A stretch of 64,000 nucleotides of DNA from Methylovulum psychrotolerans. Its GTDB lineage: Bacteria > Pseudomonadota > Gammaproteobacteria > Methylococcales > Methylomonadaceae. Made by a program: the position numbers and the translations under genes. Positions 3,976 through 11,285 of the stretch are shown here, in pieces. Positions within the stretch are counted from its first letter, which is position 1. Each line of letters starts with the position of its first letter. The stretch lies in assembly GCF_002923755.1 (NCBI RefSeq), contig NZ_PGFZ01000001.1, forward strand, positions 1,067,176 to 1,131,175, in the 5' to 3' direction. The notes beneath the pieces are model-generated. The model was not told the DNA's origin. It did no database searches and was given only the letters and a program-made list of their open reading frames with translations.

Positions 3976-6108
3976 ATGGAACCACTCGTTTTTTATGGCT
4001 ATTTATTGGCTACCATCGCCTATTTTCTCTTATTGCTGACCGCTTGGGTGGGGCGCAAAAAAAATCCCGTCGCCGGACCTTTTTTGCTGGCTCTGGCCTT
4101 CTCCATGCTCTGGGCGGGCTATATCACCGTTTGCGAATACCAACCTACTTACACTTTAATAATTTCAACCAGTTTGGCGTTTGAAACCCTACGCAATGCC
4201 ACTTGGTTTTTTCTGCTCGGCACACTCATTTCGCGGCAGCAGCTTAACCATAACTACCTATTGCTATACCGGTCACGCTTCACTTATATGCTCGCCGCGT
4301 TCATTGTCTTTTTGCTCGTTTTTGAACTGTCCGAAGACGTGCGCACCCCCATTAAACAGTTCGTCGGCAATCAAGTGCATATCCGATTGATGTCCCACCT
4401 CATGTTCGCCATTATCGGCTTGGCCTTAGTCGAACAACTGTACCGCAACGCCACTACCGAGCTGCGCTGGGTCATCAAATTTTTGTGTATCGGCTTAGCG
4501 TCTTTGTTTACTATTGACTTTATTGTCTTTAGCAAATCATTATTGTTCACCAGCCTGGATTACCCGTTGTGGGGTTCGCGGGGCATTATCAATACCCTGA
4601 TCACCCCTTTGCTGGGCATCGCCATGTACCGCCTGCAAACCCACGGCATGACCGACATTAGCCTGTCGCGGACGTTGGTCTTCCATAGCACGGTGCTGAT
4701 GGGGACCGGGTTATACCTGATCACCATGTCTTTAGCGGGCTATTACATCCGCGATTTTGGCGGCAGTTGGGGTGAGTTCGCCGAAATTGTCTTTATTTTC
4801 CTCGCCATTATTCTGCTGCTGGTGTTGTTTGTTTCGGGCAGAGTTAGAGCCTTAGTCAAAGTCTATTTCAACAAGCATCTGTTCAGCTACCACTACGATT
4901 ACCGCGAAGAATGGCTCAAGCTCAGCAAAACTATTGCCCGGTTGAACTCCTTGCCAGAACTCTCCGCCGCCATCATCAAAACCATGGCCGATTTGGTGGA
5001 CAGTTCTGGCGGCGGCTTATGGTTAAAAGACGAGCAAGGCGATTTTTATCTGGCCGATGCAAAAAATTTAGGCTTTGACTCTCCCCAGCAACTGGCGGCC
5101 AACCATAGCATGATCCTATTTATATCAAAAAAACAATGGGTTATTGATTTTTACGAACTAGCAGAAAGCCCCCAGCTCTATAAGGATGCCGACCTGTCAT
5201 TATGGATGACCCCAGAGAAAGCAGTCTGGCTCATTATCCCGCTATTCTTGCAAAATGATCTGGAAGCCTTTGTCGTCCTGACCCAAGCCCGCGCCCCGCG
5301 GCCTTTAAATTGGGAAGACCACGATCTGTTGAAAACCGTGGGTAAACAGCTTGCCAACGCCCTTGCCCTTAACCACGCCAGTGACGCGTTGTCCAGATCA
5401 CGCCAATTTGAAGCTTACAACCGCATTTCCGCTTATTTGGTGCATGATCTGAAAAACTTGATCGCCCAAGTCGGCCTAATTGTCAAAAATGCCGAAAAAC
5501 ATAAGCGCAATCCTGAATTTGTCGATGACGCCATTACTACGCTGGAAAATGTCGTGACCAAAATGGATCATCTGATTACTCAACTGAAAAAAGGCCACGA
5601 CCCTCAATATCAGAACCATCGCCTTAACCTTGCCGATGTTGCCGCCGATGTCGCCTTGCAACAAGCCGGTAACCGCCCTGCGTTGCAAGTGCTGAACACT
5701 CTTACAGACGACTTGTTTGTCGTCGGTGAAAAAACCAAAATCACCGCCATTCTTGGCCATCTGGTGCAAAATGCCCAAGATGCCACACCCGCCGACGGTT
5801 TTGTAAAATTAATCCTAGAAAAACAGCCGCCCCACGCCATTATTAAAATAACCGACAACGGCTGCGGCATGGATAGAAAATTTATCGCCGAACGCCTGTT
5901 TAAACCGTTTGACACCACCAAAGGTAATGCCGGCATGGGCATAGGCGTATATGAAGCGCGTGATTATATCCGCAGATTAGCGGGCAGTTGCCATGTTGAC
6001 AGCACCCCCGGGCTAGGCACAACCTTTACCGTTTGCCTACCCCTTGCCGAAGAGTTGATAGTAGACTCGGAGAGCCCCTCTCCTGCTAATACCGGGGCAA
6101 ACGTATAA
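3976..6108 (+). CDS. prsK: PEP-CTERM/exosortase-system sensor histidine kinase PrsK
   Basis: Membrane histidine kinase of the PrsK type, which with the sigma-54 activator PrsR controls exopolysaccharide and PEP-CTERM protein genes in exosortase-bearing bacteria. Eight to nine hydrophobic helices fill residues 1-290, a GAF-like region follows (about 320-460), then an H box (AYLVHDLKNLI, His near 490) and an ATPase domain with an N box (LVQNAQDAT, about 597), DNGCGMD (about 627) and a glycine lid (GNAGMGIGVYEAR). The 710-residue length fits the family. The usual partner prsR does not follow; coaBC does. The assignment rests on architecture and the HDLKN-type H box. Confidence 0.82.
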   Translation: MEPLVFYGYLLATIAYFLLLLTAWVGRKKNPVAGPFLLALAFSMLWAGYITVCEYQPTYTLIISTSLAFETLRNATWFFLLGTLISRQQLNHNYLLLYRSRFTYMLAAFIVFLLVFELSEDVRTPIKQFVGNQVHIRLMSHLMFAIIGLALVEQLYRNATTELRWVIKFLCIGLASLFTIDFIVFSKSLLFTSLDYPLWGSRGIINTLITPLLGIAMYRLQTHGMTDISLSRTLVFHSTVLMGTGLYLITMSLAGYYIRDFGGSWGEFAEIVFIFLAIILLLVLFVSGRVRALVKVYFNKHLFSYHYDYREEWLKLSKTIARLNSLPELSAAIIKTMADLVDSSGGGLWLKDEQGDFYLADAKNLGFDSPQQLAANHSMILFISKKQWVIDFYELAESPQLYKDADLSLWMTPEKAVWLIIPLFLQNDLEAFVVLTQARAPRPLNWEDHDLLKTVGKQLANALALNHASDALSRSRQFEAYNRISAYLVHDLKNLIAQVGLIVKNAEKHKRNPEFVDDAITTLENVVTKMDHLITQLKKGHDPQYQNHRLNLADVAADVALQQAGNRPALQVLNTLTDDLFVVGEKTKITAILGHLVQNAQDATPADGFVKLILEKQPPHAIIKITDNGCGMDRKFIAERLFKPFDTTKGNAGMGIGVYEARDYIRRLAGSCHVDSTPGLGTTFTVCLPLAEELIVDSESPSPANTGANV

Positions 6109-6237
6109 CAACATCCGCCACCCAGAACTCACAAAGTACGGATCTCCTAGCCATTGCCCACCCGTTTAAAATTTAAGCCTAGAACAATTCAGCCAGACTT
6201 GCCATAATAGCGTTTTTGTCCGTATTCAGGTGCCATT

Positions 6238-7440
6238 ATTAATAAGCGTGTTTTATTAGGTATTAGCGGCGGCATCGCCGCCTATAAATCGGCAGAGTTA
6301 GTACGCTTATTGCGCAAACAAGGCGCACAGGTACGCGTAGTCATGACTACCGCCGCCGCTGAGTTTATCCGTCCCCTCACCTTTCAGGCCTTATCGGGCC
6401 ATCCTGTCCAGACCACCTTACTGGATGCCGATGCCGAAAACGCTATGGGACACATTAACCTCGCCCGCTGGGCGGATGTTTTGGTCATCGCACCCGCCAG
6501 TGCCAACCTGCTCGCCAAACTCAGCCATGGCTTAGCGGATGATTTGCTTTCCACCCTGTATTTGGCGGCAACCTGTCCGGTTTATGTCGCTCCGGCCATG
6601 AACCAAGCCATGTGGTCTAAAGCCGTCACTCAGGCAAACGTCGAACGCCTAAAAACCCACGGAGTCAGATTTATTGGCCCGGCAGCAGGAGACCAAGCCT
6701 GCGGCGAAACGGGCTTGGGGCGTATGTCAGAACCCGAAGACATTTGCCGCCAACTGCTTACTGCGCCCGCTTCGGTGCAAGCCAGTTCGGAACTGGCCGG
6801 CCTTAAGGTCTTAATTAGTGCAGGCCCCACGCGTGAGCCTTTAGACCCGGTACGCTATATCACCAACCGTAGCTCAGGCAAAATGGGCTACGCCTTAGCA
6901 GAAGCGGCAATCAATATGGGGGCAGATGTCACCTTGGTCAGCGGCCCGGTACAATTAGCCGCTCCTGCCCAGGCGCGGCTAATCCAAGTGGAGACCGCCG
7001 CACAAATGTATGCGGCGGTACTGGCCGAGGCCGACAGCCATGCCATTTATATCGGCGCGGCGGCAGTGGCCGATTACAGCCCCGTACCCGCCCCTGAAAA
7101 ACTGAAAAAACACGCGGGCGCAAGCACGCTGGTGCTACACAAAACCCAAGACATCTTAGCGGCGGTAGCGGCCTTAACGCCGCCGCCCTTTACCGTCGGC
7201 TTTGCCGCCGAAACCGAAAACCTGACCGAGTATGCGCTAGGCAAACTCCAAGACAAAAAACTGGCGATGATTGCCGCCAATTGGGTCGGTAAGGCAGAGG
7301 GCGGCTTCGACAGGGACCAAAACGCCTTACAGGTTTTTTGGCCCACTGGCCAAAAAGCCCTGGCAATGACCGACAAATCCCTGCTTGCCCAACAACTGCT
7401 CAGCCTGATCGCCGAACACTTCTATAACACCATGCCATGA
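6238..7440 (+). CDS. coaBC: bifunctional phosphopantothenoylcysteine decarboxylase / synthetase CoaBC, apparent ATT start
   Basis: Coenzyme A synthesis: the C-terminal CoaB half joins cysteine to 4'-phosphopantothenate using CTP, the N-terminal FMN-dependent CoaC half decarboxylates the product. The CoaC half shows [19 protein letters not shown] with the catalytic His, APAMN and the CGETGLGRM clamp; the CoaB half starts at [16 protein letters not shown]. No ATG, GTG or TTG occurs in frame between the upstream stop (6208-6210) and TTG 6310, and starting at 6310 would delete the FMN-binding glycine loop. An AGGTG Shine-Dalgarno at 6228-6232 points to ATT at 6238 (or 6235). The last four bases overlap the dut start (ATGA). 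Confidence 0.9.
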
Positions 7441-7892
7441 ATACCATACAGTTAAAAATTCTTGACCCCCGTTTAGGCGCAACCATCCCTTTGCCTGACT
7501 ATGCCACCTCCGGCTCGGCGGGTTTAGATTTACGCGCCTGCCTTGACCAAACTACCGTTATCGCCCCTGGGGAAACCTTGCTTATCCCTACCGGACTGGC
7601 GATTTATATTGGCGACCCTGGTTTAGCGGCAGTCTTATTGCCGCGTTCAGGCCTAGGTCATAAGCACGGCATTGTCTTGGGCAATTTAGTCGGGCTGATT
7701 GATTCGGATTATCAAGGGCAAGTGTTCGTTTCCTGCTGGAACCGCAGTGATAGTGCCTTTACCCTCCAGATCGGTGAGCGTATCGCCCAAATGGTATTTG
7801 TCCCCATCGCACAAGTCCAGTTCCGCCAAGTCGACGACTTTACGGCCAGTAGCCGGGGAAGCGGCGGCTTTGGCCATACCGGACAACAGTAG
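7437..7892 (+). CDS. dut: dUTP diphosphatase
   Basis: Hydrolyses dUTP to dUMP and pyrophosphate, keeping uracil out of DNA and feeding thymidylate synthesis. All five motifs of the homotrimeric dUTPase are present in 151 residues: [31 protein letters not shown], the GERIAQMVF strand, and the flexible C-terminal [12 protein letters not shown] that closes over the active site. It overlaps coaBC by four bases, so it is translationally coupled to it; coaBC-dut is a conserved pair in gammaproteobacteria. Confidence 0.97.
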
Positions 7893-8212: not shown

Positions 8213-9238
8213 ATGAGAAAAATGTTCTCTTTGCTTGCGCTTGCCATGGTTCTCATCATACTGACGGCGGGTTTTGGCATTTATTGGTTAAGCTCAAACG
8301 AAACCAACACCGCCAAAAAAGAGGCCGCCGCCGCCGAAGCGAAAAGTATTGCCTTAGGGTTATCGGCACACCTTACCTTACTGAACAAAACTCTCGATAA
8401 AATGGCCGAAGACCCCGATGTGCTGAATGCGGTCAACATAGGTAACAGCGGCCTATTAAGGGTTAATGCGGCCAGACTTGAAAAGTATCTCCCGAATGCC
8501 CTAAAAATCCGCTTATTACTGCCTGACACCAATACCATTGACGAGCAAGATAAACCGCGCATGGGCTTTGCCGATTTGGAAATGGTCAAAGAAGCCTTAA
8601 CACACAACCCGTTTCCCAGCATCCACGGCGATAAAGGGGTTGACAGGCACTTGGCGATAACCCGGAGCATTAGCCAAAACGGTAAAGTCGTCGGCATGAT
8701 TCTGGCGAGCTTAGACGAAAACATTATCTTAAATGGCCTTAAACTGATACCGACAAAAAACAGTTATTTTGAACTCAGGCAAGGCTTACAAGTATTGGCC
8801 GCTATCGGCACCAAAAATAGCACAAGCAGCCTGGACGGCAACCAGCAGCCTATTGCCAATAGTGACTGGGCGATATATTATCAATACGACGATAGCATGG
8901 ATATGGCTGATTTGAGCCTGATGCTTAGCATTATCATCATCCCCTGCCTTATCGCCTTAGGCTTGATATTTATCACCCACCGTTGGTTATCAAGCACCCT
9001 AAGCCAAGACTTAGAAAGCCTGATGAAAGCCTTTAAAGATATTATGGCCGGTTCGGCACACAGCCACTATCCTGTCGAACTGGTAGAAATGCACGCCGCC
9101 GTATCCAATCTGATGCAATTTAAAAGGGTTCTCGATTATAGCGACCGCGACAGCCCGCCACCTAGCCATAAATCTGATATAACCGTCACTGACGATAACT
9201 TCGATTTGGATGATTTATTTGATGATTTTAAATTTTAG
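8213..9238 (+). CDS. membrane sensor protein resembling the N-terminal half of long AlgC, catalytic half missing
   Basis: A 341-residue protein with one membrane segment at about 7-27, a periplasmic alpha/beta region to about 230, a second membrane segment at about 235-255 and a cytoplasmic tail ending in an acidic stretch (DDNFDLDDLFDDFKF). The layout, and the phrases RLLLPDTNT, MGFADLEMVKEAL and GKVVGMILASLDENI, resemble the extended N-terminal region that precedes the phosphomannomutase/phosphoglucomutase domain in many long AlgC proteins. Position supports this: in Pseudomonas the order is coaC-dut-algC-argB. Here translation ends before any phosphosugar-mutase motif and argB follows. It may be a free-standing sensor or the remnant of a lost fusion; no role is proven. 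Confidence 0.6.
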   Translation: MRKMFSLLALAMVLIILTAGFGIYWLSSNETNTAKKEAAAAEAKSIALGLSAHLTLLNKTLDKMAEDPDVLNAVNIGNSGLLRVNAARLEKYLPNALKIRLLLPDTNTIDEQDKPRMGFADLEMVKEALTHNPFPSIHGDKGVDRHLAITRSISQNGKVVGMILASLDENIILNGLKLIPTKNSYFELRQGLQVLAAIGTKNSTSSLDGNQQPIANSDWAIYYQYDDSMDMADLSLMLSIIIIPCLIALGLIFITHRWLSSTLSQDLESLMKAFKDIMAGSAHSHYPVELVEMHAAVSNLMQFKRVLDYSDRDSPPPSHKSDITVTDDNFDLDDLFDDFKF

Positions 9239-9404
9239 GTAACGGCAGCTTGCAAATTAGCCAAATTCAAGCATAAATTCGCCGATTAAAATCTTGCAAG
9301 TTTTCATGCCCACCGTGTATAAAATTGGCGGCAATGCTTAATTGTATCCACCGCCGCTTAATTCACCCTTTCCCCTTAATACCCAATAGATGATGGACTA
9401 TTAA

Positions 9405-11285
<1,881 letters not shown>

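Follow-up and report, generated by a model that had tools for sequence, protein, structure and literature searches.

Here we show that a stand-alone gene between dut and argB in Methylovulum psychrotolerans is homologous to the N-terminal half of long AlgC proteins and occupies their chromosomal slot without the catalytic half, that it forms a single clade with the stand-alone genes of its genus, that it is under purifying selection which is strongest at its acidic C-terminal tip, and that its product is modelled with a Cache fold. We consider it reasonably probable that the sensor half of a long AlgC has turned into a free Cache receptor, one that acts in trans and probably uses the acidic tip to signal. 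According to this mechanism, the catalytic half would have been lost before the sampled Methylovulum lineages diverged, with a CpsG-like mutase available. The Cache domain would bind a small periplasmic ligand, the HAMP-like helices would relay the ligand-induced change, and the tip, once exposed or positioned, would dock a cytoplasmic partner in trans. Homology together with synteny, the single clade, the dN/dS ratios, the pN/pS of the tip, the Cache fold, the disordered linker of a fused relative, retention of the sensor alongside GlmM and Pgm only, and Cache-GGDEF proteins in the same slot of three other genomes (G281, G309 and G425) all favour a freed receptor. Counting against it are a stop codon in one copy (G016), a tip that is not universal and whose motif was defined post hoc, the low confidence of the modelled tip helix (pLDDT ~30–40), and the dispensability of the gene, since four Methylovulum genomes have dut adjoining argB.

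Work on AlgC has treated it as a soluble enzyme for the synthesis of alginate, LPS, and rhamnolipid precursors, and no description of its membrane half was found in the literature searched (titles and abstract openings). Lineages that retain this half without the enzyme constitute a natural experiment on its role. The receptor half appears to be under selection alone, which is moderately surprising, and the data suggest that it is selected independently of the enzyme and has a role beyond serving it. They direct the search for a partner of the sensor to the short conserved tip, and the GGDEF protein found in the same slot elsewhere offers a way to test whether sugar-nucleotide supply and biofilm signalling are linked.

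The DNA analysed (the window) is a stretch of 64,000 nucleotides, and the features discussed below are collected in the table. The sensor frame is open from ATG to TAG over 341 codons. As the preliminary description had placed it, the gene is flanked by dut and argB, and the distance to argB is exactly 169 bases. The coaBC gene lies 5′ of dut (NCBIfam coaBC_dfp, E 4e-122). Between positions 7400 and 9600 Rfam gave no regulatory RNA match, and predicted promoters (2 vs 3.1 expected from shuffled sequence) and terminators (1 vs 2.0 expected) gave no signal.

Table. Features of the stand-alone sensor gene, its product, and its neighbours (window coordinates)
Feature	Position	Strand	Basis
dut, 5′ neighbour of the sensor gene	7437..7892	+	NCBIfam E 2e-61
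Stand-alone AlgC-type sensor gene, 341 aa	8213..9238	+	ORF, homology, purifying selection
First membrane helix, residues ~2–25, begins long helix	8216..8287	+	AlphaFold2; membrane nature inferred from sequence
Periplasmic Cache domain, residues ~26–229	8288..8899	+	Block mean pLDDT 74–94, fold matches; periplasmic side inferred
Second membrane helix, residues ~231–255	8903..8977	+	Model helix 231–279; position presumed
HAMP-like cytoplasmic segment, residues ~256–310	8978..9142	+	Model helices; identity 0.54
Variable linker, residues 311–327	9143..9193	+	Mean pairwise identity 0.26; pLDDT <50
Acidic C-terminal tip, residues 328–341	9194..9235	+	Identity 0.57; pN/pS 0.10
169-base gap; site of the catalytic half in relatives; remnant-free	9239..9407	+	Translated search
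argB, 3′ neighbour of the sensor gene	9408..10310	+	NCBIfam E 5e-70

Long AlgC, a protein of ~840 aa, occupies the dut–argB slot in 30 of the 61 family genomes surveyed, and its first 340 residues are homologous to the window protein. The proposed kinship with AlgC N-terminal regions is borne out by 35–47% identity to those of fused AlgCs of the same family (best E 1e-95); a fused AlgC of another family (G063) is 26% identical. Three fused relatives scanned with Pfam have all of PGM_PMM domains I–IV, whereas none of the four was detected in the window protein up to E 1, and its tail is acidic as described, with nine D/E and four K/R/H among the last 30 residues. In a fused relative it is only the second half that matches structures of P. 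aeruginosa AlgC (E ~1e-173; 1k35 and kin, which we take to be that enzyme). The window protein thus resembles long AlgC in its N-terminal half, its dut and argB neighbours, and an acidic motif related to one found in some of the fused linkers, and differs from it in ending within what is linker in the fused form.

The model of one fused relative (G022) bears on how the two halves are joined. All of residues 309–382, between sensor and mutase, have pLDDT <50, leaving ~70 residues predicted to be disordered. Because the segment that joins the halves is disordered, the mutase in fused AlgC looks tethered rather than mechanically coupled; the segment fits a flexible tether, which would account for a separation that leaves both halves undamaged. 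Loss of the catalytic part, one of the options originally put forward, is borne out: no mutase comes after the sensor, in a slot where the long AlgCs of relatives carry one. A deletion scar, in contrast, was not found in the gap before argB: translated searches with AlgC, the replacement mutase, and the neighbours as queries stayed at chance level (tblastn best E 0.66), with no catalytic remnant and no repeats.

The window protein was matched in 81 of 101 genomes of the order. In its own family (f1, 61 genomes classed by open frame) the gene is sensor-only in 17, fused in 30, broken in the sensor in one (G049), and missing in 13; the fused class takes in G054, at a contig end, G038, both interrupted and cut, G037, which carries a tandem copy in addition, and G011. 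Fifteen of the 20 genomes under the Methylovulum genus code have the sensor, stand-alone in 14 (that of G002 ending at a contig end) and fused in G011, where it is probably a binning contamination because 5,177 bases of its contig (L146) share 92.6% DNA identity with G199, a genome from a different genus. The 13 other stand-alone Methylovulum copies are 42–66% identical to the window protein, and 12 of them are free of internal stops. The G016 sensor is interrupted at codon 9 by a stop (L011:1525–1527) that falls in the first membrane helix, and its frame is open thereafter, so this copy is either broken or translated from a later start. The sensor is missing, with dut directly before argB, from G004, G005, G008, and G017, as from other members of the family; in G001, a further sensor-less Methylovulum, no argB locus was detected.

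On a tree of 68 hand-picked sensor rows, in which short frames are over-represented, the 14 stand-alone Methylovulum rows form one clade (support 92/97), and the stand-alone label takes five changes, at least three of them forced by supported branches. Sensor-only genes arose several times within the family. The tandem copies of Methyloglobulus (g19) have a single origin, distinct from that of the split forms in G108, G129, and G147, and the sensor-only gene of G189 nests among fused ones. A concatenated ArgB and CoaBC tree was poorly resolved at depth, with 23 of its 57 inner branches open, so the loss counts are lower bounds taken from the sensor tree. The Methyloglobulus tandem copy (L110, L140) is likewise a stand-alone AlgC sensor in the dut–argB interval; unlike the window gene, it stands alongside an intact fused AlgC, is without the acidic tip, and originated separately. 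Loss of the catalytic half in progress is seen in G155 (L127:3183–6806), where an intact sensor is followed by a fragmented catalytic half, with genes read from sequence as transposase-like between and after the fragments. The reverse case, a broken sensor half with an intact catalytic half, is found in G049 (L078:2924–5190).

Across the class, a profile search with a threshold of E <= 1e-10 gave a single match in each of 66 genomes out of 229. Of these matches, 56 lie in frames of 746–1,065 aa; the ten short matches, inspected individually, were the window and nine further loci. Sensor-only genes are also present in two other families, adjoining argB in G241 and G381 (both f50) and in G324. 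Two of the remaining loci are truncated at contig ends (G286, G351), and in G297 the catalytic half is broken. In G281, G309, and G425 (f90 and f118; L166:2387–3907, L169:698–2113, and L170:2545–3963) a Cache-HAMP-like-GGDEF protein fills the slot after dut. The GGDEF domain has a Pfam E of 3e-39 in G281 and was read from the sequence in the other two, and in G281 and G425 (L166 and L170) the gene is followed by that of a short AlgC. The sensor similarity of these proteins is weak (22–31% identity; profile E 8e-14 to 3e-12), and their descent from the AlgC sensor is likely. They have in common with the window protein the slot and a weakly similar sensor; the window protein has neither a GGDEF domain (Pfam to E 1) nor a short AlgC next to it.

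These observations bear on a further, tentative proposal, possible rather than probable, that long AlgC is itself a two-output protein, in which the acidic linker motif of the receptor would already signal to a cytoplasmic partner and the mutase would merely be tethered. If that is true, lineages that no longer need the mutase would retain the receptor, others would couple the slot to a diguanylate cyclase, and one input would serve both a metabolic enzyme of the exopolysaccharide pathway and c-di-GMP signalling.

The preliminary description had also offered a second option, a separate sensor controlling a mutase whose gene lies elsewhere, and had proposed searching the genome for a stand-alone phosphomannomutase. 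A gene of this type does exist (G000:C1:825140–826507). It is one of three PGM_PMM_I genes, the other two being GlmM and a glucose-specific Pgm (both by NCBIfam), and encodes a CpsG-like protein of 456 aa that scores 704 bits with the CpsG model, under its cut-off of 801. The nearest PDB entries are phosphoglucomutase/phosphomannomutase structures (5bmn and kin, presumably XanA of Xanthomonas). Its identity to the AlgC catalytic half of G029 is 32%, against mostly 63–72% for the catalytic halves of the fused relatives inspected, so the lost half has been displaced by a different mutase rather than relocated.

A free sensor that regulates or recruits this replacement mutase (or Pgm or GlmM) in trans, rebuilding the former Cache-mutase unit with two genes, would fit the adjacent sensor and mutase genes of the split forms and the distribution of the CpsG-like mutase, which was found (E <= 1e-75) in 13 of 17 sensor-only and 9 of 30 fused genomes of the family and was absent from G049. 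For a statistical link between the sensor-only state and the replacement mutase, supported branches yield one independent pair, and the association is inseparable from kinship. The CpsG-like mutase is retained without a sensor in 6 of 13 sensor-less family genomes, which speaks against such a pairing, and four sensor-only genomes (G003, G009, G023, and G041) are without it. The first has ManC and a third type of mutase. In the last three, just two PGM_PMM_I genes were detected in each, GlmM and Pgm (NCBIfam), with no match to GMP_PMI/ManC, at completeness of 94% (G009), 77% (G023), and 99% (G041); the mutase survey covered family PF02878. ManC is an imperfect marker of the pathway: it went unmatched too in two fused genomes (G034 and G045) and in three that carry the replacement mutase (G005, G013, and G015, the last two at 76% completeness). 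In sensor-only G189 the PGM_PMM superfamily is likewise represented only by GlmM and Pgm, which were detected in every one of G000, G009, G023, G041, and G189. The sensor and a recognisable tip are kept in G009, G023, G041, and G189. Because the sensor persists in three genomes in which GlmM and Pgm were the only members of the superfamily detected and ManC was not matched, regulation of a mutase in trans is unlikely as a general explanation, though GlmM or Pgm may be targets.

The freed-receptor reading draws on the predicted structure of the protein. The AlphaFold2 model (mean pLDDT 80.9) starts with a long helix, followed by a Cache domain, another long helix, and then a shorter one. Its top structural matches are Cache sensors, with KinD at Z 14.8 and rmsd 3.5 over 185 residues (the VIA-align rows span mainly residues 24–232), and Pfam, searched to E 1, gave dCache_1 at E 4e-4, below its cut-off; the model thus has a Cache fold. 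Identity to Cache receptors with which this fold is shared, such as the sensor of the sporulation kinase KinD and the chemoreceptors Tlp3 and PctA, is 8–16%, and the window protein differs from them in having no kinase, methyl-accepting, or cyclase output. Helices are modelled where flanking membrane helices would be expected, their membrane nature being read from the sequence. The segment at 256–310 is modelled as two helices and a connector; Pfam detected no HAMP in it to E 1, and calling it HAMP-like is our own reading. In the tail (311–341) pLDDT is <50, and the helix modelled at 333–339 is of low confidence.

Among 17 chosen stand-alone rows, mean pairwise identity is 0.57 in the tip, 0.26 in the linker, 0.49 in the Cache core, and 0.54 in the HAMP-like segment. 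We regard it as improbable that the protein is a membrane anchor or scaffold that does not sense, with the tip localising envelope or polysaccharide proteins and Cache merely a stable periplasmic module: the conserved tip and the long disordered linker of fused AlgC are consistent with tethering, but conservation of the Cache core is close to that of the membrane-proximal parts (0.49 vs 0.50 and 0.54), with P94 and H146 among its invariant residues, and the GGDEF domain that other families have in this slot suggests signalling.

Estimates of selection (Nei-Gojobori, own script) gave dN/dS of 0.09–0.17 for six Methylovulum stand-alone pairs, one using a partial sequence and one the open part of G016, and 0.06–0.07 in two pairs under genus code g23. 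The ratios were 0.06 and 0.26 in two fused control pairs, and 0.12 and 0.10 in two pairs of the Methyloglobulus tandem copy; several dS values are ~1 or above, making individual ratios rough, and the pair G106–G157 was excluded. Pooled over seven stand-alone pairs, with one genome entering two of them, pN/pS was 0.10 in the tip, 0.24 in the body, and 0.38 in the linker, and the acidic tip is the most constrained part of the sensor. A motif pattern for the tip, composed after the alignment had been inspected, is present in 20 of the 37 stand-alone rows (21 counting G157) and 11 of 31 fused rows. It is missing from all six Methyloglobulus tandem copies, all three split forms, and others such as G057 and G155, and so is not universal among free sensors.

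That the sensor is a decaying remnant, functionless since the enzyme was lost and slowly disappearing, is improbable: the sensor is wholly missing from 13 of the 61 family genomes, has a stop in G016, is shortened to 266 aa in G150 and to 217 aa in G167, is broken in G049 and G124, and is fragmentary in G166, but the divergent Methylovulum copies remain open with that one exception, dN/dS well below 1 already strains decay, and constraint peaks at the extreme C-terminus.

Further observations concern the neighbouring genes. PrsK, the histidine kinase of the XrtA/PEP-CTERM system, lies directly upstream of coaBC (window 3976–6108; NCBIfam TIGR02916, E 6e-209), and its position is taken by a 224-aa gene in several relatives. 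At 6211–6310 the coaBC frame extends open 5′ of the first ATG/GTG/TTG and codes for a conserved protein start, so a rare start codon may serve for translation. Finally, at six loci (L142, L098, L099, L123, L128, and L078) Dut is 46–49% identical to that of the window, against ~70–80% in most relatives, while argB at the same loci is 87–90% identical, unlike the diverged dut, which seems to have been replaced in place.
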